Below are positions 4,425-21,609 of a DNA stretch of 64,000 nt, in pieces. This DNA comes from Aureimonas sp. AU20 (GTDB lineage: Bacteria; Pseudomonadota; Alphaproteobacteria; Rhizobiales; Rhizobiaceae): contig NZ_CP006368.1 in NCBI RefSeq assembly GCF_001442755.1, forward strand, positions 186,001-250,000, given 5' to 3'. How positions within the stretch are numbered: position 1 is the first letter of the stretch; each line of letters opens with the position of its first letter. The notes under the pieces were generated by a model. It searched no databases and was not told the origin of the DNA. It saw nothing but the letters and a program-made list of their open reading frames with translations. Position numbers and translations under genes: made by a program.

Positions 4425-5240
4425 TCAGTGCCCGCTCGAAAGCCGGGTCGGAGCTGAGACGACGAGGTCTTCGTCCGCGAACAGGGCGTTGGTGCGGAAG
4501 GCGACTTCCGTCCGGTTGCGGGCGTTGAGCTTGCGCATGATGTTGCGCACATGCACCTTCACCGTGCTCTCGCGCATGTTCAGTTCATAGGCGATGCGCT
4601 TGTTGGCCATGCCCTGCCGGAGCGCCCGGACGACCGCCGCCTGACGGTTGGTGAACAAGGCGTCGGCCTCGAAGCGCAGGTCCTTGGGCAGAACCGGCTC
4701 CGGCCGGTGATAGGACGAGATGCAGCTGGCCGGAATGAACATTCCCCCCGCCCTCACCATCTGCAGCGCCTCGACCGCCGCGCTGAGCGCCATATTCATG
4801 GCGATGTAGCCCTGCGCGCCGGCGTCGATGGCGAGCTTGATGCTGTCGATCCCGTCGCCTTCGGCAAGCACCACGAGGGGCACGGAAAGCCGGCTTTTCA
4901 GAAAAGCCATTTCCTCGCGCGTGGTGTCTTCTCCGCTGGCCCGGTTGCCCATGTAGAGCAGGATCAGCGCGTAGGGCGAAGAGGCGGTCAAGTCCGCGGC
5001 GAACTCGTCCACGCTCTCGAAGCATTGGATCTCGATATTGGGCGCCCTGACCCGAAGGGCCTGTTCGAGGCACTCCTGAAAGATCCTGCATCCATGGATC
5101 ATGGCGATCGGCAGGTTGGCATCGCGGGGACCGACGCTGCCGAAAGGGGGCACGCTCTGGGTGCGGCTACTCAGGCTTGCGGAGGCTGTCGTGCCTACGG
5201 TGCCGTTGCTGTAATGCAGGTTCGACTGATGACTATTCAC
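4425..5240 (-). CDS. LuxR-family regulator with degenerate receiver domain
   Basis: DNA-binding regulator of 271 residues. Translation starts at GTG 5238-5240, with GGGAGGA just upstream on the coding strand. Residues about 196-255 are a LuxR/FixJ helix-turn-helix (recognition segment RESTVKVHVRNIMRKLNARN). Residues about 43-165 fold like a receiver domain, but the phosphoacceptor position in LILLYMGN carries tyrosine (Y96) where Asp is expected, and the N-terminal acidic pair is missing (AMIHGC). It is therefore unlikely to be switched by phosphorylation and resembles CsgD/VpsT-like regulators of matrix genes. It is convergent with the flippase, with a low-GC upstream region. Confidence 0.85.
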   Translation of the reverse strand: MNSHQSNLHYSNGTVGTTASASLSSRTQSVPPFGSVGPRDANLPIAMIHGCRIFQECLEQALRVRAPNIEIQCFESVDEFAADLTASSPYALILLYMGNRASGEDTTREEMAFLKSRLSVPLVVLAEGDGIDSIKLAIDAGAQGYIAMNMALSAAVEALQMVRAGGMFIPASCISSYHRPEPVLPKDLRFEADALFTNRQAAVVRALRQGMANKRIAYELNMRESTVKVHVRNIMRKLNARNRTEVAFRTNALFADEDLVVSAPTRLSSGH

Positions 5241-5846: not shown

Positions 5847-6107
5847 TCAATGCCGCTTGGCGTCGATGACGTCGGCGAGGTTGCCGAGCGTGTCGAAGGT
5901 CTCGGTGGTGAAGTCGTCGTCCTCGAGCTGGATGCCGAAACGCCGCTCGATGGCCCCGGCCAGTTCCACCACGCCGAAGGAGTCGAGCTCCGGCAAGCTG
6001 CCGAACAGGCGCGTGGAGGGGTTGGGGGGGCAGGCGTCCTGATCGATGCCCAGCGTGTCGACGACGACCGCGCGCACCTCCCACAAGATCTCTTCCGAAC
6101 GGCTCAT
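5847..6107 (-). CDS. Acyl carrier protein
   Basis: Small acidic carrier protein of 86 residues starting at ATG 6105-6107. The phosphopantetheine attachment motif is LDSFGVVEL with Ser43 as the modified residue, within the expected helix 2 region, and the C-terminus is FDTLGNLADVIDAK. It is not a fatty-acid-synthase ACP by context: it sits 10 bases downstream of a methyltransferase gene and opposite an AMP-forming ligase, a GNAT-like enzyme and a PLP decarboxylase. It probably carries an activated acyl or aminoacyl group for polysaccharide modification; that role is inferred. Confidence 0.88.
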   Translation of the reverse strand: MSRSEEILWEVRAVVVDTLGIDQDACPPNPSTRLFGSLPELDSFGVVELAGAIERRFGIQLEDDDFTTETFDTLGNLADVIDAKRH

Positions 6108-6117
6108 GGCGTGATCC

Positions 6118-6756
6118 TCAGCGCGAGTGGTGGAAGGCGACGCCATGCTCGGCGCCGCCGATCTGCTTTTCCCAGCGGTCGAAGGGTTGGAGCCAGGAAT
6201 GGCGGCGGAAGACGTCGTCCTGGGAGGCGTCGGGATTGGCGAAGGCGAGACGCAGCGGCTGGCCGTCCCGATCCGCCCGAAGCTTCTCGAGGACGCGGTC
6301 CAGCGTCGAAGCGCCGAACGGATTGAACAGGAAGACCACCGTCGCGCGGGAATAGTCGAAGCTCTCGGCCAGGCCGTTGTGGACGGCGATCGCGGTCCTG
6401 CGCCCGCGCAGGCTTTCGGCGTTGCGGCAGGCGTCGCGGCACAAGTCCGGCGCGTATTCGATGCCCACCACCGAGCGGCAGGTTCGCCTTGCCGCGCAAC
6501 ACAGGACGCGGCCGCGCCCGCTTCCGACATCCACAAAGACGTCGTCCGGCCCCAGCGACAGAGCATCGACGATGCGCCCCACGAACCGATAGCCCATCGT
6601 CGCGTAGTGATTGGCGTCCGGCTTGGTCGTGGCGACGACGCCCCGCGTGCGAATGCCGAGCTGCCAATCCCATCGCAGATTGTCGAGACGATCGAGAAGA
6701 TCTCGGGCCTTCGGGACGGTGGGCAGGATCGGGGCGGCTAGGAAATGGGACGGCAA
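6118..6756 (-). CDS. SAM-dependent methyltransferase
   Basis: Class I methyltransferase of 212 residues. The start is TTG at 6754-6756, chosen because GGGAGG lies about five bases upstream on the coding strand and no ATG fits. SAM-binding motif I is VFVDVGSGRGR (residues 73-83) and the acidic residue of motif II is in VVGIEY (Glu100). FLFNPFG near residue 135 is the post-motif. The ACP gene follows 10 bases downstream. Substrate is unknown; it may methylate a sugar or the carrier-bound group. The unusual start codon may keep its expression low. Confidence 0.82.
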   Translation of the reverse strand: MPSHFLAAPILPTVPKARDLLDRLDNLRWDWQLGIRTRGVVATTKPDANHYATMGYRFVGRIVDALSLGPDDVFVDVGSGRGRVLCCAARRTCRSVVGIEYAPDLCRDACRNAESLRGRRTAIAVHNGLAESFDYSRATVVFLFNPFGASTLDRVLEKLRADRDGQPLRLAFANPDASQDDVFRRHSWLQPFDRWEKQIGGAEHGVAFHHSR

Positions 6757-7067
6757 GGCGACCTCCCGGCGTCGTAGGCTGACGGGCGGCCCGGGGCCGC
6801 GTTCGAGACCGGCAAGGGCGCCGGCGGCACGCCGTCAGGCTAGCCGACGGCGCGCGAACGGGTCCATCGGCCCATTCCGGCATCCCCTCATGCTTTGGGT
6901 GGAACGCCTTACGCCCATCGTCGGACGGACAGGCTCCGCCTTCCTCTTCGGAGGGCCCGAAGCCGTCGTTTTCTCGTCTTTCACGTCGGTTTTCTCGTCC
7001 CTAGCATAGGGCTCGAGAGGCCGGATCGCCCATTCCATCCGCCCATTCCATCCGAGGAGCTTTCTCC
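6757..7067. promoter_or_regulatory. Divergent region between methyltransferase and GNAT operons
   Basis: These 311 bases separate the minus-strand methyltransferase/ACP pair from the plus-strand GNAT/ligase/decarboxylase operon, so they should contain two promoters. A moderately AT-rich patch (ttttctcgtctttcacg) lies near 6968. No coding frame is convincing. The ribosome site GAGGAG at 7054-7059 belongs to the plus-strand operon. Confidence 0.4.
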
Positions 7068-7937
7068 GTGCAGCCGAGCCGCGCCGCCCAGTTGCGCCCG
7101 ATCGGGGAATCCGACCTTCCCGAGGTCGGCCGCTTTCTCCACGAGCATATGAACGCGCGCATTCCGGCGGAAAGCTGGGCCAGGGCGGCGAGGCCCACCT
7201 GGGCGATCGAGGCGCCGAATCACGGCTTCATGCTGGTCTCGGACGGGCGCATCGTCGGGGCGCACCTCGCCTTCTATTCGGAACGGCGCTCGGGCGAGAG
7301 CGTCCGACGCATCTGCAATCTTGCGGCCTGGTGCGTCCTCCGGGAGTTTCGCTTCGAGGGGCTACGGCTTCTCAAGACGCTGCTGTCGCAGCCGAACTAC
7401 GAGTTCACCGATCTTTCGCCGAGCGGCTATGTCGTGCCGTTGAACGCGCGCCTTCAGTTCAAGCCGCTCGACACGGCCACCGCGCTGGTGCCGAACCTGC
7501 CCTGGCCGGCCCGGCCGGGGCGGGTGCGCATCGTGTCCGATCCCGCCGAGATCGAGCCGCTGCTGGAAGCGCGGGACCTCGACATCTTCCGCGACCATCG
7601 CCACGCCCAGGCCGCGCACCATCTGGCGATTCAGGCGCGCGGGCGAAGCTGCTACGTCATTTTCCGGCGGGATCGGCGCAAGAACCTGCCGCTCTTTGCC
7701 TCCATCCTCCATGTCGGCGAGCCCGCCCTGTTCGCGCAGGCCGGGCGGCATGTGTTCTCGCATATGCTCCTGCGCCACGGCATTCCAGCGACGCTGGCGG
7801 AACTGCGCGTAATCGGCGGCCGGCCCTGGCCCTCCGTCATGCTGCGCGCGCCCCGCCCCAAGATGTTCCGCAGCGAAGCGCTGGGGGCCGACCAGATCGA
7901 CTATCTCTATAGCGAGCTGACCTGCGTCGCCTGGTGA
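7068..7937 (+). CDS. GNAT-like acyltransferase of the carrier-protein island
   Basis: Protein of 289 residues starting at GTG 7068, preceded by an excellent GAGGAG at 7054-7059. The N-terminal half (LRPIGESDLPEVGRFL, then GFMLVSDGRIVGAHLAFYSE at 53-72) has the strand-helix pattern of a GNAT N-acyltransferase, and a second, diverged GNAT-like half follows, as in tandem-GNAT or FemX-like folds. No signal peptide. It begins a plus-strand operon ending 30 bases before the ligase. It may transfer the ACP- or CoA-bound group to a sugar amine. Family assignment is by pattern only. Confidence 0.65.
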   Translation: MQPSRAAQLRPIGESDLPEVGRFLHEHMNARIPAESWARAARPTWAIEAPNHGFMLVSDGRIVGAHLAFYSERRSGESVRRICNLAAWCVLREFRFEGLRLLKTLLSQPNYEFTDLSPSGYVVPLNARLQFKPLDTATALVPNLPWPARPGRVRIVSDPAEIEPLLEARDLDIFRDHRHAQAAHHLAIQARGRSCYVIFRRDRRKNLPLFASILHVGEPALFAQAGRHVFSHMLLRHGIPATLAELRVIGGRPWPSVMLRAPRPKMFRSEALGADQIDYLYSELTCVAW

Positions 7938-7967
7938 AACCGTTCTCGGCAGAAGGTGCGTTCGATC

Positions 7968-9545
7968 ATGCGGCTGTGTCTCCATCACCTGATCGAGGAA
8001 TCGGCGGCCCGGGACGGCGCGGCGCCGGCGCTCGTCTATAGGACCCGGACCCTGTCCTATGCCGAACTCTGGCAGCAGGCGCGGGGCTTCGGCGCTGCGC
8101 TCGGCGCGCTCGGTCTGGAGCGGAGCGAGCGCGTCGCGATCTATCTGGAGAAGCGGATCGAGACCGTCGTCGCGATTTTCGGCGCCTCGGTCGCCGGCGC
8201 CGTCTTCGTGCCGGTCAATCCGCTGCTGCGGCCGGCGCAGGTCGGCCACATCCTCGCCGATTGCGACGTGCGCGTTCTCGTCACCTCGCCTGACCGTCTC
8301 GCCCAGCTGCGCGAGGCGCTGGGTGACTGTCCCGCGTTGGACCATGTGATCCTCGTGGACGAGGAGGCGGGCGACGGCGCGGCCGCCCGGCATGTGCCCT
8401 ATGCGCTCCATGGCTGGGGCGAGTTCGGTCCCCGGGGAGACGCGGCGTTCCAGGCGCCCGCCCGCATCGATCTCGACATGGCGGCGATCCTCTACACCTC
8501 GGGCAGCACGGGAAAGCCCAAGGGCGTGGTTCTCAGCCACCGCAACCTTCTCGTCGGGGCCGAGAGCGTCAGCCATTATCTCGGCAACACGAAGGACGAC
8601 GTCATCCTGTCGGTGCTGCCTTTGAGCTTCGACGCGGGTCTCAGCCAGTTGACCACCGGTTTCAGCGCCGGGGCGCTCGTCGTTCTCGCCAATTATCTTC
8701 TGCCCGGCGACGTCGTGAAACTCTGCGCCCGGCACGGCGTCACGGGCCTGACCTGCGTGCCCCCGCTCTGGGCGCAACTGGCCGCGCAGCGCTGGCCGGA
8801 GGAGGCGAGCGGCCGCCTTCGCTACTTCGCCAACACGGGCGGGCGCATGCCGGGAGCCTTGCTCGCCCGGCTGCGAGGGCATTTTCCGAAGGCGCGGCCC
8901 TTTCTCATGTACGGGCTCACCGAAGCCTTCCGCTCGACCTATCTCGACCCGGCGGAGATCGACCGGCGGCCGGATTCGATCGGCAAGGCCATTCCCAATG
9001 CCGAGATCCTGGTGCTGCGCCCCGACGGCTCGCCCTGCGAGGCGGGCGAGGAGGGCGAGCTGGTCCATCGCGGCGCGCTGGTGACGCTGGGCTATTGGAA
9101 CGACCCCGTGCGCACCGACGAGCGCTTCCGGCCCTTGGGGGGCCAGCCTTCTGGGCTCCACGCCGAGCGGGCGGTGTTTTCCGGTGATGTCGTGCGCGCC
9201 GACGCGGATGGGTTCCTTTACTTCGTCGGCCGGCGCGACGAGATGATCAAGACCTCGGGCTACCGCGTCAGTCCGACCGAGATCGAGGAGGTGGCCTATG
9301 CCACCGGGCTGGTGCGCGAGGCCGCCGCCTTCGGCGTGGAGGACGAGGAGCGGGGCCAGCGCGTCGTGCTGGTGGCAAGCCCCACGGACGCGGGGCCGCT
9401 GGACGAGGCGGCGCTGCTGGTGGCGATGAGGCCGCATCTGCCCCATTACATGCTGCCCTCGCGGGTGATCGCGCGCGACGGGCTACCGATCTCGCCCAAC
9501 GGTAAGTTCGACCGCGCGCAGCTGCGCATGGAGCTGGCGCCATGA
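7968..9545 (+). CDS. AMP-forming acyl-CoA/acyl-ACP ligase, exosortase-A-associated type
   Basis: Adenylate-forming enzyme of 525 residues. The ATG at 7968 is preferred over the in-frame GTG at 7956 because AGAAGG (7951-7956) is correctly placed for it. The P-loop-like motif LYTSGSTGKPKG lies near residue 175, the hinge GRRDEMIKTSGYRVSPTEIE near 425, and the C-terminal catalytic lysine in PNGKFDR near 513. The sequence and its coupling (ATGA overlap) to a PLP decarboxylase match the ligase/decarboxylase pair known from exosortase-A loci. It would activate a carboxylic or amino acid and load it on the ACP at 5847 or on CoA. Confidence 0.88.
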   Translation: MRLCLHHLIEESAARDGAAPALVYRTRTLSYAELWQQARGFGAALGALGLERSERVAIYLEKRIETVVAIFGASVAGAVFVPVNPLLRPAQVGHILADCDVRVLVTSPDRLAQLREALGDCPALDHVILVDEEAGDGAAARHVPYALHGWGEFGPRGDAAFQAPARIDLDMAAILYTSGSTGKPKGVVLSHRNLLVGAESVSHYLGNTKDDVILSVLPLSFDAGLSQLTTGFSAGALVVLANYLLPGDVVKLCARHGVTGLTCVPPLWAQLAAQRWPEEASGRLRYFANTGGRMPGALLARLRGHFPKARPFLMYGLTEAFRSTYLDPAEIDRRPDSIGKAIPNAEILVLRPDGSPCEAGEEGELVHRGALVTLGYWNDPVRTDERFRPLGGQPSGLHAERAVFSGDVVRADADGFLYFVGRRDEMIKTSGYRVSPTEIEEVAYATGLVREAAAFGVEDEERGQRVVLVASPTDAGPLDEAALLVAMRPHLPHYMLPSRVIARDGLPISPNGKFDRAQLRMELAP

Positions 9546-10768
9546 CGCTCCGCCCCGACAGGACGGGTTTCGACGAGGCGGACGGGCGCCTCGCTATCAG
9601 CGGAATGACGATCGACCGATTGGCCGAGCGGGTCGGGAGCACGCCCTTCTTCGCCTATGACCGGCGGTTCCTGACGGCCCGCGTCGGCCTGCTCCGTTCG
9701 ATCCTGCCGAGGGGCATTCATCTCAACTACGCCGTGAAGGCCAATCCGATGCCGGCGATCGTGCAGCATCTGGCCGGCCTGGTGGACGGGTTCGACGTCG
9801 CCTCCGCGCAGGAAATGCGCACCGCGCTCGACACGCCGATCGACGCCGCGCATGTCGGCTTTGCCGGCCCCGGCAAGACGGATGCCGAACTCTCCCAGGC
9901 GGTGGCCTCCGGCGTGACGATCGAACTGGAGTCCCGAACGGAATCCCTGCGCGTCGCAGCAGCCGGGGAAAGGCTCGGCCTGCGCCCCCGGGTCGCGATC
10001 CGCGTCAATCCGGACTTTCGGATCAAGGGGTCGGGCATGCGGATGGGAGGCGGGCCGCAGCCTTTCGGGGTGGATGCGGAGGGCGTTCCCGCGCTGATGG
10101 CGGATCTCGCCGGTCTCGATCTCGATCTTCTCGGCTTCCATGTCTTTGCCGGATCGCAGAACCTCCATGCCGAGATCCTGTGCGAGGCGCAGCGTCGCAC
10201 GGTCGATCTTCTGTTGGCGCTCGGCCAGCGGGCGAGGGTGCCGATCCGGTATCTCAATCTCGGCGGCGGCTTTGGCATTCCTTATTTCGAAGGGGATGCG
10301 CCGCTTGATCTGGACCCGATCGGCGCCAATCTGGCCGAGCTGATGGAACGGTTCATCCGGCCCGGGATGCCGGACGCTCGGGTGGTGATCGAACTCGGCC
10401 GCTATCTCATCGGCGAGGCCGGGATCTACGTGACCCGCATTCTCGATCGCAAGGCGTCGCGCGGGCGAACCTATCTGGTGGTCGACGGGGGCCTGCACCA
10501 TCAGCTCGCCGCGTCCGGCAATTTCGGCCAGGTGATCCGCCGCAACTATCCCATCGCCCTGGCGAACCGGATGGGCGATCCGGCGGAGGAAACGCTGAGC
10601 GTCGTCGGGTGCCTCTGCACGCCGCTCGATCTCCTGGGCGATCACGTGCCGCTGCCGCGCGCCGAGATCGGGGATCTCGTCGTCATCTTCCAGGCCGGCG
10701 CCTATGGCCCGACCGCGAGCCCCACGGGGTTTCTCGGCCATCCGCCCGCCGTCGAAGTGCTTGTCTGA
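9542..10768 (+). CDS. PLP-dependent decarboxylase, exosortase-A-associated type
   Basis: Fold-type III decarboxylase (DapDC/LysA/ODC superfamily), 408 residues, whose ATG overlaps the ligase stop by four bases. The PLP lysine is Lys66 in YAVKANP, the phosphate-binding glycine loop is GGGFG at about 241-245, and the catalytic cysteine is in CTPLDLL (Cys359). It would decarboxylate an amino acid or an aminoacyl group made by the ligase. With the ACP, ligase and GNAT it forms a compact modification pathway. Substrate is unknown; lysine or diaminopimelate activity cannot be excluded, but the context argues against housekeeping lysine synthesis. Confidence 0.88.
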   Translation: MTLRPDRTGFDEADGRLAISGMTIDRLAERVGSTPFFAYDRRFLTARVGLLRSILPRGIHLNYAVKANPMPAIVQHLAGLVDGFDVASAQEMRTALDTPIDAAHVGFAGPGKTDAELSQAVASGVTIELESRTESLRVAAAGERLGLRPRVAIRVNPDFRIKGSGMRMGGGPQPFGVDAEGVPALMADLAGLDLDLLGFHVFAGSQNLHAEILCEAQRRTVDLLLALGQRARVPIRYLNLGGGFGIPYFEGDAPLDLDPIGANLAELMERFIRPGMPDARVVIELGRYLIGEAGIYVTRILDRKASRGRTYLVVDGGLHHQLAASGNFGQVIRRNYPIALANRMGDPAEETLSVVGCLCTPLDLLGDHVPLPRAEIGDLVVIFQAGAYGPTASPTGFLGHPPAVEVLV

Positions 10769-10792: not shown

Positions 10793-11713
10793 ATGCCAGG
10801 TTCGTCACCAATCAGCCAGAAGGCCGGCGGCTGTTTCACTGGTCGATGGATCGTCGCCCTCGCCGGCCTGTGCGCGGTCTGCGCGCCCGCGCAAGCGCAG
10901 GGAAACGGTCCAAAACCCTTCCCCAACGCCGCCACGGCGGGCGTGCCGCCGGGCTGGCAGCCCAGGGACATCCGCGAGGGCGACGTGGTCGTCAGCCAGC
11001 CGGGCGCGGTGGTGGAGGATCTTCGCATCGTGGACGGCAATCTCCTGGTCGACGCCGAAAATGTCACTGTGCGGCGGGTGGAGCTTCTGGGCGGGCGCAT
11101 CGTCAACGACCCCGCCAGCGCCTGCCGAAACGGGCTCACCATCGAGGACACGTCGATCCTTCCCTCGCCCGACAAGGGGAAGGCGAGCGAATATCCCGCG
11201 ATCACCACCGGCGGCTACACTTCGCGCCGGGTGAGGATCGACGGTGTGGCGGAAGGGTTTCGCGTTGGGGGCGTCAGCCATGGCTGCGGGCCGGTGACGA
11301 TCGAGGACAGTTTCGTGCGCGTCGTCTCGCCCGAGCCCTGCGGCGATTGGCACGGCGACGGCATCCAGGGCTATGACGGCCCGCCCCTGACGGTGCGCAA
11401 CGTGACGCTGCACCTCGACGAGCGCCCCGGCTGCGGCGGCACCGCGCCCTTCTTCTATCCCGACAAACAGGGCAACACGTCCGCCCGGATCGACGGCCTG
11501 CTCGTCCAAGGCGGCGGCTACCTGTTTCGCCTCGGCGTGCCCGCATCGGTGCGGGGCCTCAGCATCGTGGCGCAGTCCTGGGGCTATGGGCCGATCGACG
11601 TCAAATGCTCGGCGGTCGGGACCTGGGAGGCTGAGATCGTGACGGCCGATGCCGACTACCAGCCCAAGGCCATCCTGCGCTGGCAGCGCTGCGACACGGA
11701 AGCGGGCAATTGA
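10793..11713 (+). CDS. Secreted right-handed beta-helix protein
   Basis: Protein of 306 residues with a strong ribosome site (GAGGAGGAAA, 10778-10787) and a signal peptide of about 36 residues cleaved near APAQA-QG. The mature part has repeating short strands (VVEDLRIVDGNLLVDAENVT, VTVRRVELLGGRI, VTIEDSFVRVV, LTVRNVTLHL), typical of parallel beta-helix lyases and polysaccharide-binding proteins. Conserved HGDGIQGYDG suggests a sugar-binding or catalytic groove. It ends the decarboxylase operon and may process or bind the exported polymer in the periplasm. No specific lyase family is recognised. Confidence 0.7.
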   Translation: MPGSSPISQKAGGCFTGRWIVALAGLCAVCAPAQAQGNGPKPFPNAATAGVPPGWQPRDIREGDVVVSQPGAVVEDLRIVDGNLLVDAENVTVRRVELLGGRIVNDPASACRNGLTIEDTSILPSPDKGKASEYPAITTGGYTSRRVRIDGVAEGFRVGGVSHGCGPVTIEDSFVRVVSPEPCGDWHGDGIQGYDGPPLTVRNVTLHLDERPGCGGTAPFFYPDKQGNTSARIDGLLVQGGGYLFRLGVPASVRGLSIVAQSWGYGPIDVKCSAVGTWEAEIVTADADYQPKAILRWQRCDTEAGN

Positions 11714-17585: not shown

Positions 17586-18323
17586 TCACATCCGCCGCTT
17601 GATCTGCATGGACACCATCCGGCGAAGCCGCCGGGCTAGCGGCAGGGCGCCGGTCAGAAGCGCCTCGCCCGCCCGCGCGGACATGTCGGCACGGATCGAC
17701 GTGCGCGGCCGGGGAAAGTCCGCACGGCGGGCCGTGCCGCCGTCGCTGGAATAGGCGGCCTCGAAGCCAGCTTCGCGCAGGGCTTCGAGCACCCGGCGAT
17801 CGTAGCGCCCGAAGGGGATCGCGGCGGCCGGGACCCGCCGGTCGCAGATCCGCTCCAGGACAGCCTTCGAGGCGGAAAGGTCGCGGGCAAGATTCGCCGC
17901 ACCGAGCGTCGTCCAGTCCCGATGGTCGACGCCGTGGCTGCCGATGCCCATCCCCATCCGCGCGAGCTCTCCGACGTGATCCTCGCCCAGCGAGCCGCGC
18001 CGGCCCAAGCGTCCGGTCAGAACGAAGAACGTCGCCCGGAGCCCGCGCCGTTCGAGCTCGGGCGCGGCGATCGCCCAGTCGGAAAGATTGCCGTCGTCGA
18101 AGGTGAGGGGGGGACGATGCAAGGTCGGCAGGGCCGCGACCCGGTCGAGAAGCGCGCGGAAGCGTTCGACGCCGATCCAGAACGGCGCTTCGCCGGGGTC
18201 GAGCTCGCGCTGTGGCTCGCCGATCCCATGGAAGGTCAGGATCGGAGCGCGTTCGAGGACGTCCAGCCCTTGGATCTTAGCGGCGTCGGTGGAGAGCGTT
18301 TCCATTGCGGCGTGAGAGTCCAT
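17586..18323 (-). CDS. Polysaccharide deacetylase (NodB-type)
   Basis: Carbohydrate esterase 4-like protein of 245 residues with no signal peptide. Motif 1 is TFDDG (74-78) and the zinc-binding motif 2 is SHGVDH (His130 and His134). It would remove N- or O-acetyl groups from sugar intermediates, probably on the cytoplasmic side given the lack of an export signal. ATG 18321-18323 follows GAGGACAG, and the upstream GT gene ends 10 bases before. The C-terminal MSMQIKRRM tail is basic. Confidence 0.88.
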   Translation of the reverse strand: MDSHAAMETLSTDAAKIQGLDVLERAPILTFHGIGEPQRELDPGEAPFWIGVERFRALLDRVAALPTLHRPPLTFDDGNLSDWAIAAPELERRGLRATFFVLTGRLGRRGSLGEDHVGELARMGMGIGSHGVDHRDWTTLGAANLARDLSASKAVLERICDRRVPAAAIPFGRYDRRVLEALREAGFEAAYSSDGGTARRADFPRPRTSIRADMSARAGEALLTGALPLARRLRRMVSMQIKRRM

Positions 18324-18333
18324 GAGCCTGTCC

Positions 18334-19290
18334 TCAACCCGAGTTCTCGGCGCGATAGGAAAGAGGAGGGCGCAACGGGTGCAGGGCGGTGCGAAGGGCC
18401 GTCCGATGGGTTCCCCCCTGAAAGGCGCGCACCGCCTCCCCGGCAGCAAGACCGAGGCGGAACAGCGCCGTGGAGAGCGCGCCATGGTGGCGGCGGAAAT
18501 AGCGGATGCGATTGGAGACGAGCAGCGCTGTCAACTGGGGGTCGCTTCGGCAGGGGCCGCCGATATGCCGGAAGCGCGATCTGGCAACATAGGCGATCTG
18601 CAATCCGCCCTCTCGCACCCGCCGCTGATATTCGACCTCCTCGCTATAGAGGAAGAAGGATTCATCCCATTCCGGCGCGAGCCGGCGCGCCCGCGCCGCG
18701 ATCAGAAGCGCGCAGCCCGAGGCCCAGTCGACGGTTCGCTCGTGTTCGTAGCTGCTGGCTTCCATCAGGACTTCACCGAAGCCGAGGCGCCCGGCGAGCC
18801 GGCCGCCCAGAAGGCTTTCCGCCCAGATCGAGGCGAGGGAAGGCTCGCGGCGAAGCGTCGGGTCGATCGCGCCGTCCACCATCAGATTGCGAGGTACGGC
18901 GATGCCGATCTCGGGCGCCTCGATCCGATCGAGAAGCGGCCGCACCGAACCCGGCGTCAGACGCACGTCGGGATTGAGAATCAGAACGTGCCGGCCGGGC
19001 GCGATGGTTCGCAAGGCGTGGTTGATACCGGCGGCGTAGCCGCCGTTCTCCCCGGTGCGGATGACCTTTGGAGCCACGGCATGGGCCTCTGCGATCTCGG
19101 CCGATCCGTCGCGGGAATCGTTGTCGACGACGACGATCTCGGGGGAAGCGATCCCTTCGAGCCCGGCCGAGAACGAGTCGAGAAGGCCGGGCAGCGTCGC
19201 GGCGCTGTTGTAGGCGACGGTCACGACGCTGAGGCCCGCGTCCCGCGCCGGCGCGCGGACGCGGCTTTTTGGGTGGAGGGGCGCGATCAT
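18334..19290 (-). CDS. Family 2 glycosyltransferase, WbbL/rhamnosyltransferase-like
   Basis: GT-A enzyme of 318 residues. Its ATG (19288-19290) overlaps the stop of the upstream GT gene in an ATGA arrangement. Motifs are LSVVTVAYNSAATLPGLL, VVVDNDSRDGS, NPDVRL (DXD-like) and the acceptor segment FFLYSEEVEYQRRVREGG, which is the pattern of WbbL-like dTDP-rhamnose transferases. Inferred to add one residue of the repeat unit. Confidence 0.88.
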   Translation of the reverse strand: MIAPLHPKSRVRAPARDAGLSVVTVAYNSAATLPGLLDSFSAGLEGIASPEIVVVDNDSRDGSAEIAEAHAVAPKVIRTGENGGYAAGINHALRTIAPGRHVLILNPDVRLTPGSVRPLLDRIEAPEIGIAVPRNLMVDGAIDPTLRREPSLASIWAESLLGGRLAGRLGFGEVLMEASSYEHERTVDWASGCALLIAARARRLAPEWDESFFLYSEEVEYQRRVREGGLQIAYVARSRFRHIGGPCRSDPQLTALLVSNRIRYFRRHHGALSTALFRLGLAAGEAVRAFQGGTHRTALRTALHPLRPPLSYRAENSG

Positions 19291-20189
19291 GGCCGGTTCC
19301 ACCGGGCGCTGAGGTCGGAGACATCGGCCCCGCCGGCGAGGGCAAGCATGACGCGCACGCGGTAGAAGCGGATCTGCACCACGCCCAGAAAGGCCAGCAG
19401 CCGCGCGCGGGCCCCGGTCAGCCGGTCGGAAACGAGGATGCGCCGGCACTCGGCCACGGGCGAAAGGGCCACGGCCGCACTGCGCAGGACCCAGCGAGGC
19501 CACCAGAACTGTTCGCCGCGCATTTCCGCGAAATCATGGGCGATATGCCGGTCCCACTTGCGGCTGAGCTCGGTGAAGGTCTTGCGCGCGGGGTGGTAGA
19601 CGATCATCTCGGACGCGTAGCGGATGCGGAAGCCGAGCCGGCTCGCCCGCTGCCCCCATTCCGTGTCCTCGGCGATCGTGATGCCGCCGAAGGGGCCGAC
19701 CGCGCGAAACACCTCGGCGCGCATCGCGAGATTGCCCCCGCCGGTGAAGCCGCGCTTCTCGATATATTCCTTCATCCGATAGGCGAAGACGCTCTCATAG
19801 GCTTCCAGAAGCGTGATCTGACCGGGGTCGTCGTAGAGAATGCGGACATTGCCGCCGAGGATCGTCGTTTGCGGCGATCCCTCGAAGCGCCGCTCGATCG
19901 TCGACAGCCAGGTCTCCTCGGCCACGCAGTCGGCGTCGATAAAGGCCAGGATGTCGCCTCGGGCGGTGCTCACGCCGAGATTGCGGGCGGGGCCCGGGCC
20001 GGGCTCGGGCTGGTGGAGCAGGACCACGCTGGGAAAGTCGGCGCAGACCTTGTCGGGTAGGACGAGCGAGCCGTTGTCGACGACGATGATCTCGGCGGGC
20101 TCGCGAAGGCCGCCCTGCTCGCACAGCGAGGCGAGGCACCTGCGAAGCGCCTTCTCCTGGTTAAGATGCGGGATGATAACGCTGATCAT
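19287..20189 (-). CDS. Family 2 glycosyltransferase
   Basis: GT-A enzyme of 300 residues; ATG 20187-20189 lies inside the end of the upstream GT4 gene (29-base overlap), so translation is coupled. It begins ISVIIPHLNQEKALRRCL, with IIVVDNGS, the DXD-like AFIDADC and the acceptor segment GGITIAEDTEWGQRAS. A C-terminal membrane-associated stretch (LLAFLGVVQIRFYRVRVMLALAGG) is present. Part of the minus-strand five-gene operon. Confidence 0.88.
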   Translation of the reverse strand: MISVIIPHLNQEKALRRCLASLCEQGGLREPAEIIVVDNGSLVLPDKVCADFPSVVLLHQPEPGPGPARNLGVSTARGDILAFIDADCVAEETWLSTIERRFEGSPQTTILGGNVRILYDDPGQITLLEAYESVFAYRMKEYIEKRGFTGGGNLAMRAEVFRAVGPFGGITIAEDTEWGQRASRLGFRIRYASEMIVYHPARKTFTELSRKWDRHIAHDFAEMRGEQFWWPRWVLRSAAVALSPVAECRRILVSDRLTGARARLLAFLGVVQIRFYRVRVMLALAGGADVSDLSARWNRP

Positions 20190-21609
20190 GGACGTGTCGT
20201 CCTTGCGAGAAGACCGCCTCGTAGGCGGCGAGATAGCGTGTGCGCTCGGTGGACCAGCGAAAGTCGCGGGCGGCCCGGGCAAGCCCGACCTTCGCCATGC
20301 GCTGGCGCAGGGCGGCGTTGTCGGCAAGGGCGAGGATGGCGTCGGCCAGCGCCTCCGGCGAATGGCGGCGCGCCACCAGCGCCGCCGCGCCCGCCTCGCG
20401 CCGCGCCTGGTCGAGGTCGAACTGCACGAAGGGCAGGCCGAGCATCATGTACTCGAAGACCTTGTTCATCGAGAGCTTGCGGTTGAACTCGTTCGGCGGG
20501 TCGGGGATGACGCCGATCTCCAGCGCCGATAGATGCGCCATTAAGGCCGGCCCCGAGAGATAGCCGGTGAAGCGGACCACGCCGTCGACTCCCAGCTCGC
20601 GCGACAACGCGCCGAGCCGTTGGAACTGCGGCCCGTCGCCGATGACGACGCAGGCGAAGTCGCCGCGCCCGCGCCCGTGCACGATCTCGGCCATGGCGCG
20701 CAGCAGGATATCCACTCCGTCCTGCTCGCCCATGATGCCGAGATAGCCGACGACATGGTGTCCGAGCCCGGCGAGCGCGGGGTCCGGGTCGGTCCGTTGG
20801 AAGCGGGCAAGCTCGGGATAGCTTTTCACGACGAAGACCTCGCGCGGGTCCATGCCGCCGCGTTTCACGGCGATCTCCCGGAACACCTCGTTGGTCGCGA
20901 TGCTGGCATCGGCGAGGCGGAAGGTCCGGCGCTCGAGGAAGCAAAGGATTCGATAGAGGACGTCCTTGCGCCCGAACTTCGTCGCGTAGAGTTCGGGACT
21001 GAGATCATGGTGGTCGAAGACGAAGCGCGTTCCAAACAGCGTCTTGTGAACCAGCGCGACCAGAAACAGGAGATCGGGCGGGTTGCAGGCCTGGATGATG
21101 TCGATCGGCTGCCGGCGATGGACGCGGATCGAGAGGCGCAGCTGATGGGCGAGCGCGCCGAGATATTCGCGGGGGTAGTCGCGGGCGCGGCAGGCTTCCG
21201 CCAGGGGATGGCGATGGATCTCGATGCCGGTTCGGATCTCGAACGGCGCGTCGAACCCCTTGCCCGTCGGGCAGATCACCGAGACGGCATAGCCGGCGTC
21301 CGTCAGGGCGTTCGCCTCCTGCCAGACGCGCCGGTCGAAGGGAACGGGCAGGTTCTCGACGAGAATGAGAACATGGCGCCGGCCGCGCCTGTCGCCCTGC
21401 GCGCCCGCCTCTCCGCCCAAGGGAGCGACGGCGGCGCCGCTGCGATCCGGCACGACGCGAGGCGCGGCAAGCCTCGAAAGAGTGTGGAACGGCAGCCAGG
21501 TGCGAAGCGACGTGCCGGCCGCGCCCAGAGCCTGAGCCACACGAAGGGGCCGGCCGTTCCTGGTGGGGCTCGTTCTGTCGGTGCGGGGCGGAAGGGCCTG
21601 ATCGACCAT
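20161..21609 (-). CDS. Family 4 (GT-B) glycosyltransferase
   Basis: GT-B enzyme of 482 residues, first gene of the minus-strand glycosyltransferase operon. ATG 21607-21609 is preceded by GGAGGA. An unusual N-terminal extension of about 75 residues rich in Arg/Pro/Ala precedes the first Rossmann half (HVLILVENLPVPFDRRVWQE). The C-terminal half has VVGYLGIMGEQDGVD and the donor-binding NKVFEYMMLGLPFVQFD. The DRRVWQEA segment is typical of EpsF/WbuB-like transferases. Specificity unknown. Confidence 0.88.
   Translation of the reverse strand: MVDQALPPRTDRTSPTRNGRPLRVAQALGAAGTSLRTWLPFHTLSRLAAPRVVPDRSGAAVAPLGGEAGAQGDRRGRRHVLILVENLPVPFDRRVWQEANALTDAGYAVSVICPTGKGFDAPFEIRTGIEIHRHPLAEACRARDYPREYLGALAHQLRLSIRVHRRQPIDIIQACNPPDLLFLVALVHKTLFGTRFVFDHHDLSPELYATKFGRKDVLYRILCFLERRTFRLADASIATNEVFREIAVKRGGMDPREVFVVKSYPELARFQRTDPDPALAGLGHHVVGYLGIMGEQDGVDILLRAMAEIVHGRGRGDFACVVIGDGPQFQRLGALSRELGVDGVVRFTGYLSGPALMAHLSALEIGVIPDPPNEFNRKLSMNKVFEYMMLGLPFVQFDLDQARREAGAAALVARRHSPEALADAILALADNAALRQRMAKVGLARAARDFRWSTERTRYLAAYEAVFSQGRHVHDQRYHPAS

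Follow-up and report, generated by a model that had tools for sequence, protein, structure and literature searches.

A conserved GNAT-ligase-decarboxylase-ACP cassette, a candidate aminoacyl-carrier-protein pathway in exosortase-free polysaccharide loci

The locus considered here raises the question of what a ligase and a decarboxylase of families named for exosortase-A (PEP-CTERM) loci could be doing where no exosortase is found. The window, meaning the whole 64,000 nt stretch of DNA analyzed, contains all five genes listed in the initial annotation, arranged as two divergent operons. On the minus strand are a carrier protein of the ACP/PCP type (86 aa; 5847..6107; PF00550, 40.2 bits), with its phosphopantetheine serine, Ser43, in an LDSF motif (5979-5981), and an accessory, DOT1-like SAM methyltransferase (6118..6756; PF08123 (DOT1), 34.9 bits, cut-off 23). 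On the plus strand are a two-half protein of predicted GNAT fold, the putative transferase of the last step (7068..7937); a predicted AMP-forming amino-acid:ACP ligase (7956..9545, possibly starting from the ATG at 7968); and a PLP fold-III decarboxylase, predicted to be of the aminoacyl-ACP type (9542..10768; Lys66 at 9737-9739). The reading favored here, to which we give a probability of about 0.6, is that GNAT, ligase, decarboxylase, and ACP make up a four-gene cassette encoding an aminoacyl-carrier-protein pathway that decorates surface polysaccharide.

The relationship of the two enzymes to the exosortase-associated models, which the initial annotation had proposed to check by profile search, is clear: the ligase scores 741.8 bits against TIGR03098 (ligase_PEP_1; curated cut-off 592.35) and the decarboxylase 578.4 bits against TIGR03099 (dCO2ase_PEP1; curated cut-off 478.45), making each a member. 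Both are hypothetical-equivalog models, named after gene company rather than reaction. No exosortase (PF09721) was found in the whole source genome (5.21 Mb, 99.99% complete), and no PEP-CTERM (PF07589) match at E <= 0.5; six exosortase genomes used as positive controls for PF07589 gave 4-41 matches each. What had been noted for the window, that it holds neither, thus extends to the genome, and the possibility raised at the time, that they lie elsewhere on it, found no support in these genome-wide searches. NCBIfam scans of seven window proteins likewise gave no match to the associated hydrolases TIGR03100/TIGR03101.

TIGR03099 is above cut-off in 26 Pseudomonadota genomes (of 299), and 24 of these also have an exosortase; the two without are the source genome and G320, which has one weak PF07589 match, below cut-off. 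This association, and a tree in which the cassette decarboxylases branch next to or within the exosortase-genome lineage (with the LysA of the source genome as a very long outgroup branch), would suit a cassette left over or displaced from an exosortase-A (PEP-CTERM) system whose sortase was lost. Such a history seems very improbable, however. The cassette and its own GNAT are conserved in dozens of genomes, many of them actinobacterial; none of the 77 cassette genomes searched has an exosortase above cut-off; and the cassette decarboxylases form a single clade (support 100/100) with motifs intact.

A search with the GNAT as sole query gave 80 loci, in Rhizobiales and Actinobacteria. In 57 of them GNAT, ligase, decarboxylase, and ACP directly follow one another in this order on a single strand (the gaps between matched stretches being <400 bp), which for loci found through the GNAT is more than chance. 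Six more loci and the window have all four genes in another arrangement, two have GNAT, ligase, and ACP without the decarboxylase, and six have the GNAT alone. The ligase is missing in nine loci, eight of which have a different family (c25) in the same stretch, AMP-binding by Pfam in the two members tested; in the ninth, the contig stops just past the ACP. The neighborhood of ligase and decarboxylase is strongly conserved, and the survey of co-occurrence without exosortase suggested at the outset has turned up a conserved four-gene order. The ACP cluster is present in 74/80 loci. Of 75 clustered ACPs, 71 (that of the window included) have the serine in the motif [LFMI][DN]S, and the remaining four retain it in VDS or HS. 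The methyltransferase has no match across the 80 loci, so it is not core and the conserved unit is one of four genes; a five-gene unit was rejected for this reason. Two pSymB-type loci of Sinorhizobium meliloti do have a 38-40% identical methyltransferase, ~1.8 kb past the ACP. The original proposal of five genes as a self-contained carrier-protein pathway is thus supported as to a pathway without exosortase, but with the methyltransferase left out.

The setting is one of polysaccharide genes. Neighbors tested in the window include a polysaccharide deacetylase (17586..18305, minus strand; PF01522, 75.4 bits), glycosyltransferases of family 2 (18334..19302, minus strand; PF00535, 68.6 bits) and group 1 (20161..21453, minus strand; PF13692, 70.1 bits), and a Wzy_C-like protein just below cut-off (31.0 vs. 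31.7 bits). The first three are frequent neighbors, with clusters in 50, 46, and 35 of the 80 loci, respectively. Another is a beta-helix-like protein (10793..11713, plus strand), whose loose single-linkage cluster occurs in 51/80 loci; at a level of at least 100 bits by tblastn it is found in 22/81. The window copy has no Pfam match, and one cluster member (from L040) matches PF13229 weakly (20.6 bits, below the cut-off of 25.9). Each gene cluster takes its name from a scan of one member or a handful. At least two of seven polysaccharide clusters lie nearby in 59/80 loci (a raw count, for cassette loci only), one in 17/80, and none in four.

The polysaccharide genes could still be mere neighbors of a cassette whose product is a diffusible small molecule or a lipid, such as an amino-acylated sugar or an N-acyl amine formed by the GNAT in the manner of the FeeM-like N-acyl amino acid synthases. 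Antibiotic biosynthesis offers the best-known carrier-protein amino-acid pathways (PMC11284099 and PMC7857480, both in excerpt), ACP-dependent N-acyl amino acid synthases exist, a subset of them exosortase-linked (PMC4897644, in excerpt), and to the four loci with none of the seven clusters can be added that some loci are on truncated contigs. This appears unlikely, however, given the 59 loci across both Rhizobiales and Actinobacteria with their polysaccharide clusters, and given that the homologous pair can adjoin polysaccharide genes in exosortase genomes too (from a scan of one such locus, L168, and from gene orders). Decoration of a surface polysaccharide remains the preferred reading.

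Since both enzymes are members of large superfamilies whose models they match as well, they might instead be an acyl-CoA ligase and a decarboxylase of the diaminopimelate/ornithine type, working on free substrates in lysine, polyamine, or fatty-acid metabolism. The decarboxylase does score 216 bits against TIGR01048 (lysA), below the cut-off of 298. Its best PDB match is BtrK, at 249 bits, with the next other protein at 151. The two have LCTP..D and GAYG...S...FL.HP stretches in common, and the BtrK motif stands in place of the Glu motif of DapDC, making the decarboxylase BtrK-type by sequence; BtrK converts BtrI-S-glutamate to BtrI-S-GABA (PMC7857480, in excerpt). The threonine of the CTP motif (Thr360, 10619-10621) is found in 73/73 cassette sequences, 20/20 from exosortase genomes, 4/4 f20 sequences, and 15/17 others, and the separate LysA of the source genome (G000:C1:3585390-3586502) has CESGD at this point. 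For the pocket half of the ligase the best match is VinN (3wv4/3wvn, 52 and 51 bits; next other protein, 33). VinN Asp230, which is the amino-group Asp, and the pocket residue Arg331 (roles from PMC11253843, in excerpt) correspond to Asp226 (8631-8633) and Arg326 (8931-8933), kept in 100/100 aligned ligases, the window one among them. In place of VinN Phe231 and Lys330 the window ligase has Ala227 and Phe325, which leaves room for another mode of binding or for a different acid as substrate. Ala occupies position 227 in 66/66 cassette ligases, while in exosortase-genome loci the residue is Tyr in 16/19 and Ala in three; over the region of the VinN beta13-beta14 loop the window ligase aligns without a gap. 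With the Asp-Arg pair invariant, a BtrK-type CTP motif, a LysA encoded elsewhere, and an ACP adjoining the pair in most loci, action on free substrates is quite improbable. The initial caveat, that these might be ordinary fatty-acid and lysine enzymes with no conserved neighborhood, does not describe them: the solved structures closest to theirs belong to amino-acid enzymes of carrier-protein pathways.

The GNAT-like protein has no Pfam or NCBIfam match at E <= 0.001. Its fold was found by structure prediction, and the model resembles transferases acting on sugar and peptide amines. By profile comparison it is homologous to the GNAT-like genes of L157-L160 (99.5% probability) and shows no homology to PF13480 proteins from the loci of exosortase genomes, though these may share its fold. 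Eleven fetched loci of remote relatives (28-35% identity) have no decarboxylase nearby, and just one a ligase-like match, so the GNAT family by itself does not imply the pathway. FeeM-like enzymes have a GNAT fold. As N-acyl amino acid synthases, they are described as able to use ACPs as acyl donors (PMC4897644, in excerpt).

In the favored carrier-protein pathway, the AMP-forming ligase would activate an acidic amino acid of the Asp/Glu type at its side-chain carboxyl and load it onto the ACP. The PLP enzyme would then strip the alpha-carboxyl from the ACP-bound amino acid, to leave an ACP thioester of an omega-amino acid, beta-alanyl-ACP in the case of Asp and 4-aminobutyryl-ACP in that of Glu, and the GNAT-fold enzyme would transfer the group from the ACP to a sugar amine or hydroxyl, perhaps of an amino sugar exposed by the neighboring deacetylase. 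No exosortase would be required. We infer the substrate, the order of reactions, the use of the ACP thioester as donor by the GNAT, and the acceptor; transfer to a sugar is suggested by the gene neighborhood and the transferase fold.

ACP, ligase, and decarboxylase also occur together in exosortase-bearing genomes, in some cases with other GNAT-domain proteins. An ACP match was found by tblastn in 18/20 fetched loci; tblastn counts are used for these three genes because poor gene calling makes cluster counts too low in six of the 20 (L169, L176-L178, L180, and L182). GNAT-domain clusters (PF13480 or FemAB) occur in 9/20, and up to 12/20 have hydrolase clusters next to ligase and decarboxylase; these hydrolase clusters have no members in the 80 cassette loci. 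L168, which also carries a TIGR03006 deacetylase and a TIGR03019 FemAB protein, has a PF13480 GNAT-domain protein and an ACP in one reading frame. This fusion may reflect a lost stop codon and was set aside, since none of 120 relatives among the matches listed (2060 in all) carries PF00550. Sortase uses peptidoglycan amines. For exosortase-A loci, it is conceivable, if rather doubtful, that ACP, ligase, and decarboxylase put an omega-amino acyl group on exopolysaccharide, and that exosortase A uses its free primary amine as the nucleophile that joins cut PEP-CTERM proteins to it. If so, the GNAT cassette would be a stand-alone decorating form without protein attachment.

A conserved exosortase-free cassette uncouples TIGR03098 and TIGR03099 from protein sorting and connects the pair with a carrier protein and a transferase. 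The proposed reading would assign a function to two enzymes named only for their association with sorting, suggests what the pair may contribute in exosortase-A bacteria, and predicts a concrete reaction that the mass spectrum of a single small protein can reveal. If it is correct, carrier-bound decarboxylated amino acids would extend the repertoire with which bacteria modify their surface polysaccharides.

The initial annotation compared the logic to D-alanylation by Dlt, where an amino-acid ligase and a carrier protein supply a cell-envelope polymer. The order of loading, decarboxylation, and transfer fits BtrI/BtrK and VinL/VinN/VinO, and the Dlt likeness is weaker than these, because the window ACP scores just 20 bits against the DltC model (cut-off 52.35), and so is not DltC-type, and because Dlt has, to our knowledge, no decarboxylation step. 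Transfer there is by DltB/DltD, where the cassette has its GNAT. The butirosin pathway (BtrI ACP, BtrJ ligase, BtrK decarboxylase, BtrH transferase) is like the cassette in its dedicated ACP and homologous PLP decarboxylase; its amino acyl group is then moved onto an aminoglycoside, whereas the cassette sits among polysaccharide genes. BtrJ is ADP-forming and is not known to belong to the family of the cassette ligase, and BtrH is not known to be a GNAT. The cassette shares with the vicenistatin and fluvirucin systems (VinN-VinL-VinO; FlvN) an AMP-forming ligase with the same pocket Asp and Arg, although VinN differs in Phe231 and Lys330; we know of no GNAT in the vicenistatin system. VinN loads 3-MeAsp onto the ACP VinL, on which VinO then decarboxylates it, while FlvN recognizes Asp (PMC11284099, in excerpt). 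As proposed for the cassette, an Asp-type acid is decarboxylated on a lone ACP by a PLP enzyme; in contrast, the acceptor, in the excerpted account, is a polyketide synthase, reached via VinM/VinK.

Exosortase-A loci have the same curated families, TIGR03098 and TIGR03099, but a different GNAT family. N-acyl amino acid synthases were reportedly linked to exosortase by Craig in 2011. A subset of the ACP-dependent ones is so linked in PMC4897644 (in excerpt); these FeeM-like synthases are, like the cassette GNAT, ACP-dependent transferases, there in an exosortase setting, but their cargo is a fatty acyl group and their acceptor an amino acid, and the available part of that paper describes no ligase-decarboxylase pair. 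The available parts of PMC8776678, PMC2907700, PMC4897644, PMC11631085, and PMC2848241 have exosortase or related terms in other connections only, and in that of Haft 2006 (PMC1569441) there is no mention of decarboxylase, ligase, or acyl carrier. A limited search of open-access literature, by titles and abstract starts, gave no description of the cassette. The carrier-protein logic is known from butirosin and vicenistatin; within that search, its use in polysaccharide loci appears to be new.

All five genes of the initial annotation (ACP, methyltransferase, GNAT-like protein, ligase, and decarboxylase) were verified in position in the window. Profile checks also upheld its assignment of two of them to exosortase-A-associated families: the ligase matches TIGR03098 with 741.8 bits against a curated cut-off of 592.35, and the decarboxylase matches TIGR03099 with 578.4 bits against 478.45. 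In a Pfam scan the ACP is a PF00550 protein and the methyltransferase is DOT1-like, and the GNAT-like protein had no match in a scan of profile models at E ≤ 0.001. A 694-aa open frame antisense to the GNAT and ligase genes (7362–9446, minus strand) is probably a GC-rich by-product. Just past the ACP end of the group lies a gene for a LuxR-family (GerE) regulator (4425–5240, minus strand), a candidate regulator of the cassette.

The lack of an exosortase and of PEP-CTERM proteins, noticed originally in the window, extends to the whole Aureimonas sp. AU20 genome (5.21 Mb in nine contigs, 99.99% complete), which has no match to the exosortase model PF09721 and none to the PEP-CTERM model PF07589 at E ≤ 0.5. 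An identical PEP-CTERM search of six exosortase genomes, as a positive control, gave 4 to 41 matches in each.

At E ≤ 1e-3, a search with the window GNAT-like protein gave 2325 relatives, of which the best 120 are all unnamed or “hypothetical”. A contig scan with an alignment of 24 GNAT relatives yielded 85 confirmed matches, 80 of which were taken as loci (L063 and L065, and likewise L083 and L085, are from one assembly by accession). Judging by the genera in the record titles, all 80 are from Rhizobiales or Actinobacteria. Because the scan used the GNAT alone, the partner genes serve as a test of the cassette hypothesis. With tblastn thresholds of 100 bits for the GNAT, 300 for the ligase, 200 for the decarboxylase, and 40 for the ACP, these four genes are adjacent, in this order, and on one strand in 57 of the 80 loci. 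Six more have all four in another arrangement, the window being a seventh such case; the ligase is missing in nine, the decarboxylase in two, and the GNAT is without partners in six. None of the 77 searchable genomes behind these loci has PF09721 over cut-off, the single weak match being 20.9 bits against 25.7. The cassette is real, conserved, and exosortase-free.

Some of the incomplete loci suggest variants. In eight of the nine without a TIGR03098 ligase (L059, L076, L084, L088, L094, L099, L113, and L118), a protein of about 475 aa, cluster c25, is encoded in the same stretch, near the decarboxylase and ACP; in the ninth, the contig ends directly after the ACP. The two c25 members tested match the AMP-binding model PF00501 (77 and 74 bits), and c25 is possibly a replacement for the loading enzyme; it occurs together with the ligase in three loci (L106, L109, and L112). 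Mycobacterium sp. L089 and Trebonia kvetii L103 have GNAT, ligase, and ACP with no decarboxylase nearby, perhaps a version that skips decarboxylation. Three Nocardioides loci (L058, L063, and L069) have the GNAT, no match to its three partners at the tblastn thresholds, and a different ACP-like protein with a VDS site. Mycolicibacterium iranicum (L101) has a second GNAT gene downstream of the cassette, on the opposite strand.

Among 299 sampled Pseudomonadota genomes, 26 have TIGR03099 over cut-off and 66 have PF09721; 24 of the 26 have both, the exceptions being AU20 and G320. Weaker TIGR03099 matches (E ≤ 1e-90) were found in 15 further genomes, six with an exosortase and nine without. Across 296 Actinomycetota genomes, TIGR03099 is over cut-off in two, including the chosen centre G151, and ten others match at E ≤ 1e-90. 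The GNAT profile also matches 26 of the 299 Pseudomonadota genomes, strongly only in AU20 and G320 (498 and 438 bits; next 214). Weaker GNAT relatives occur partly in exosortase genomes (e.g., G316); in the 11 such loci that were fetched, no decarboxylase lies nearby, and a single locus contains a ligase-like match.

The TIGR03099 loci from genomes with an exosortase (any PF09721 match) number 24, and 20 were fetched. Ten of these 20 have the exosortase no more than 12 kb from the decarboxylase and 14 have it within 50 kb; in the remaining six it is farther away or on another contig. An ACP match is present in 18 and a ligase in 19; the cassette GNAT was found by tblastn in none. By clusters, which rest on gene calls that are nil or nearly nil in six of the 20 loci, a PF13480 GNAT-domain protein adjoins or is fused to the ACP in six (five Pfam-tested), FemAB occurs in eight, one or the other in nine, and a TIGR03006-type deacetylase in nine. 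In one of these loci (L168:6468–7763), PF13480 protein and ACP share a single open reading frame; the ACP part is absent from the best 120 relatives. Genomes G132, G065, G101, and G019, which belong to a different family within the same order, carry a remoter version with GNAT-like protein, ACP, ligase, and decarboxylase (L157–L160); profile comparison relates its GNAT to that of the cassette.

The surroundings of the 80 GNAT loci, up to 10 kb per side, were clustered by sequence, a single member supplying the name of each cluster. A polysaccharide deacetylase cluster occurs in 50 loci, two GT2 clusters in 46 and 24, Wzy_C in 42, GT1 in 35, Wzx in 25, a sugar transferase in 19, and a beta-helix protein in 51. 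As raw counts for GNAT loci only, 59 have two or more of the seven polysaccharide clusters, 17 have one, and four have none. Sinorhizobium meliloti Rm41 pSYMB and RCAM1750 p_2 have the order GT2, GT1, GNAT, ligase, decarboxylase, ACP, GT2, deacetylase, methyltransferase, a gene content close to that of the window. In RCAM1750 the decarboxylase match is broken into two parts in different reading frames (L232:15471–16665), and the upstream GT1 match is also split in two; both matches are unbroken in Rm41 (L231). The GNAT was found in 30 of 72,556 plasmid records (27 Sinorhizobium, three Rhizobium). Its presence in one of 21 genomes of the window's own genus speaks for horizontal spread.

The best solved relatives of the decarboxylase are BtrK (249 bits), 6knh, labelled “probable diaminopimelate decarboxylase” (151), and a DapDC (149), followed by others. 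LCTP..D and AYG..S...FL.HP stretches are common to the window protein, BtrK, and also 6knh; AU20's own LysA has CESGD at the LCTP..D position. All 73 cassette, all 20 exosortase-genome, and all four group f20 sequences have Thr360, as do 15 of 17 others. BtrK decarboxylates glutamyl-BtrI (PMC7857480). The decarboxylase tree has 67 rows, 25 of which are cassette sequences (out of 73 in all), the window's included. These 25 form one clade (100/100), joined with the 20 exosortase-genome sequences in a clade of 45 (100/99); the branches deciding whether the cassette lies inside or beside the exosortase-genome lineage have 84–88% support.

Full-length, the ligase best matches multi-domain peptide synthetases. 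Among chains of single-domain size VinN is best (202 bits), and it is also first for the pocket half (52 bits; next other protein 33). Asp226 is the counterpart of VinN Asp230 (amino group) and Arg326 that of Arg331, which binds the second carboxylate. Both are kept in 66/66 cassette, 19/19 exosortase-genome, 4/4 f20, and 11/11 other ligases. At the VinN Ser299 position, all 66 cassettes have Thr, as do four exosortase-genome loci, the other 15 having Ser; that of Phe231 is Ala in cassettes and, in exosortase-genome loci, Tyr in 16 of 19 and Ala in L164, L165, and L167; that of Lys330 is Phe. Other than the carboxylate binding by Arg331, the roles given to the VinN residues follow PMC11253843. 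From the residues kept and changed, the ligase substrate is likely an acidic amino acid, and the exact one may differ between cassette and exosortase-genome ligases.

The cassette likely loads an acidic amino acid onto the ACP and decarboxylates it there. The self-contained carrier-protein pathway proposed originally is supported in part, as a conserved exosortase-free cassette with likely loading and decarboxylation; transfer to a sugar, with the GNAT moving the ACP-bound group to the polysaccharide, is plausible. The load-and-decarboxylate logic is already known from natural-product pathways, with biochemical precedents in VinN/VinL/VinO (vicenistatin) and FlvN (fluvirucin; PMC11284099), while the place, in polysaccharide loci, and the partner, the GNAT, appear to be new within a limited search of the open-access literature.
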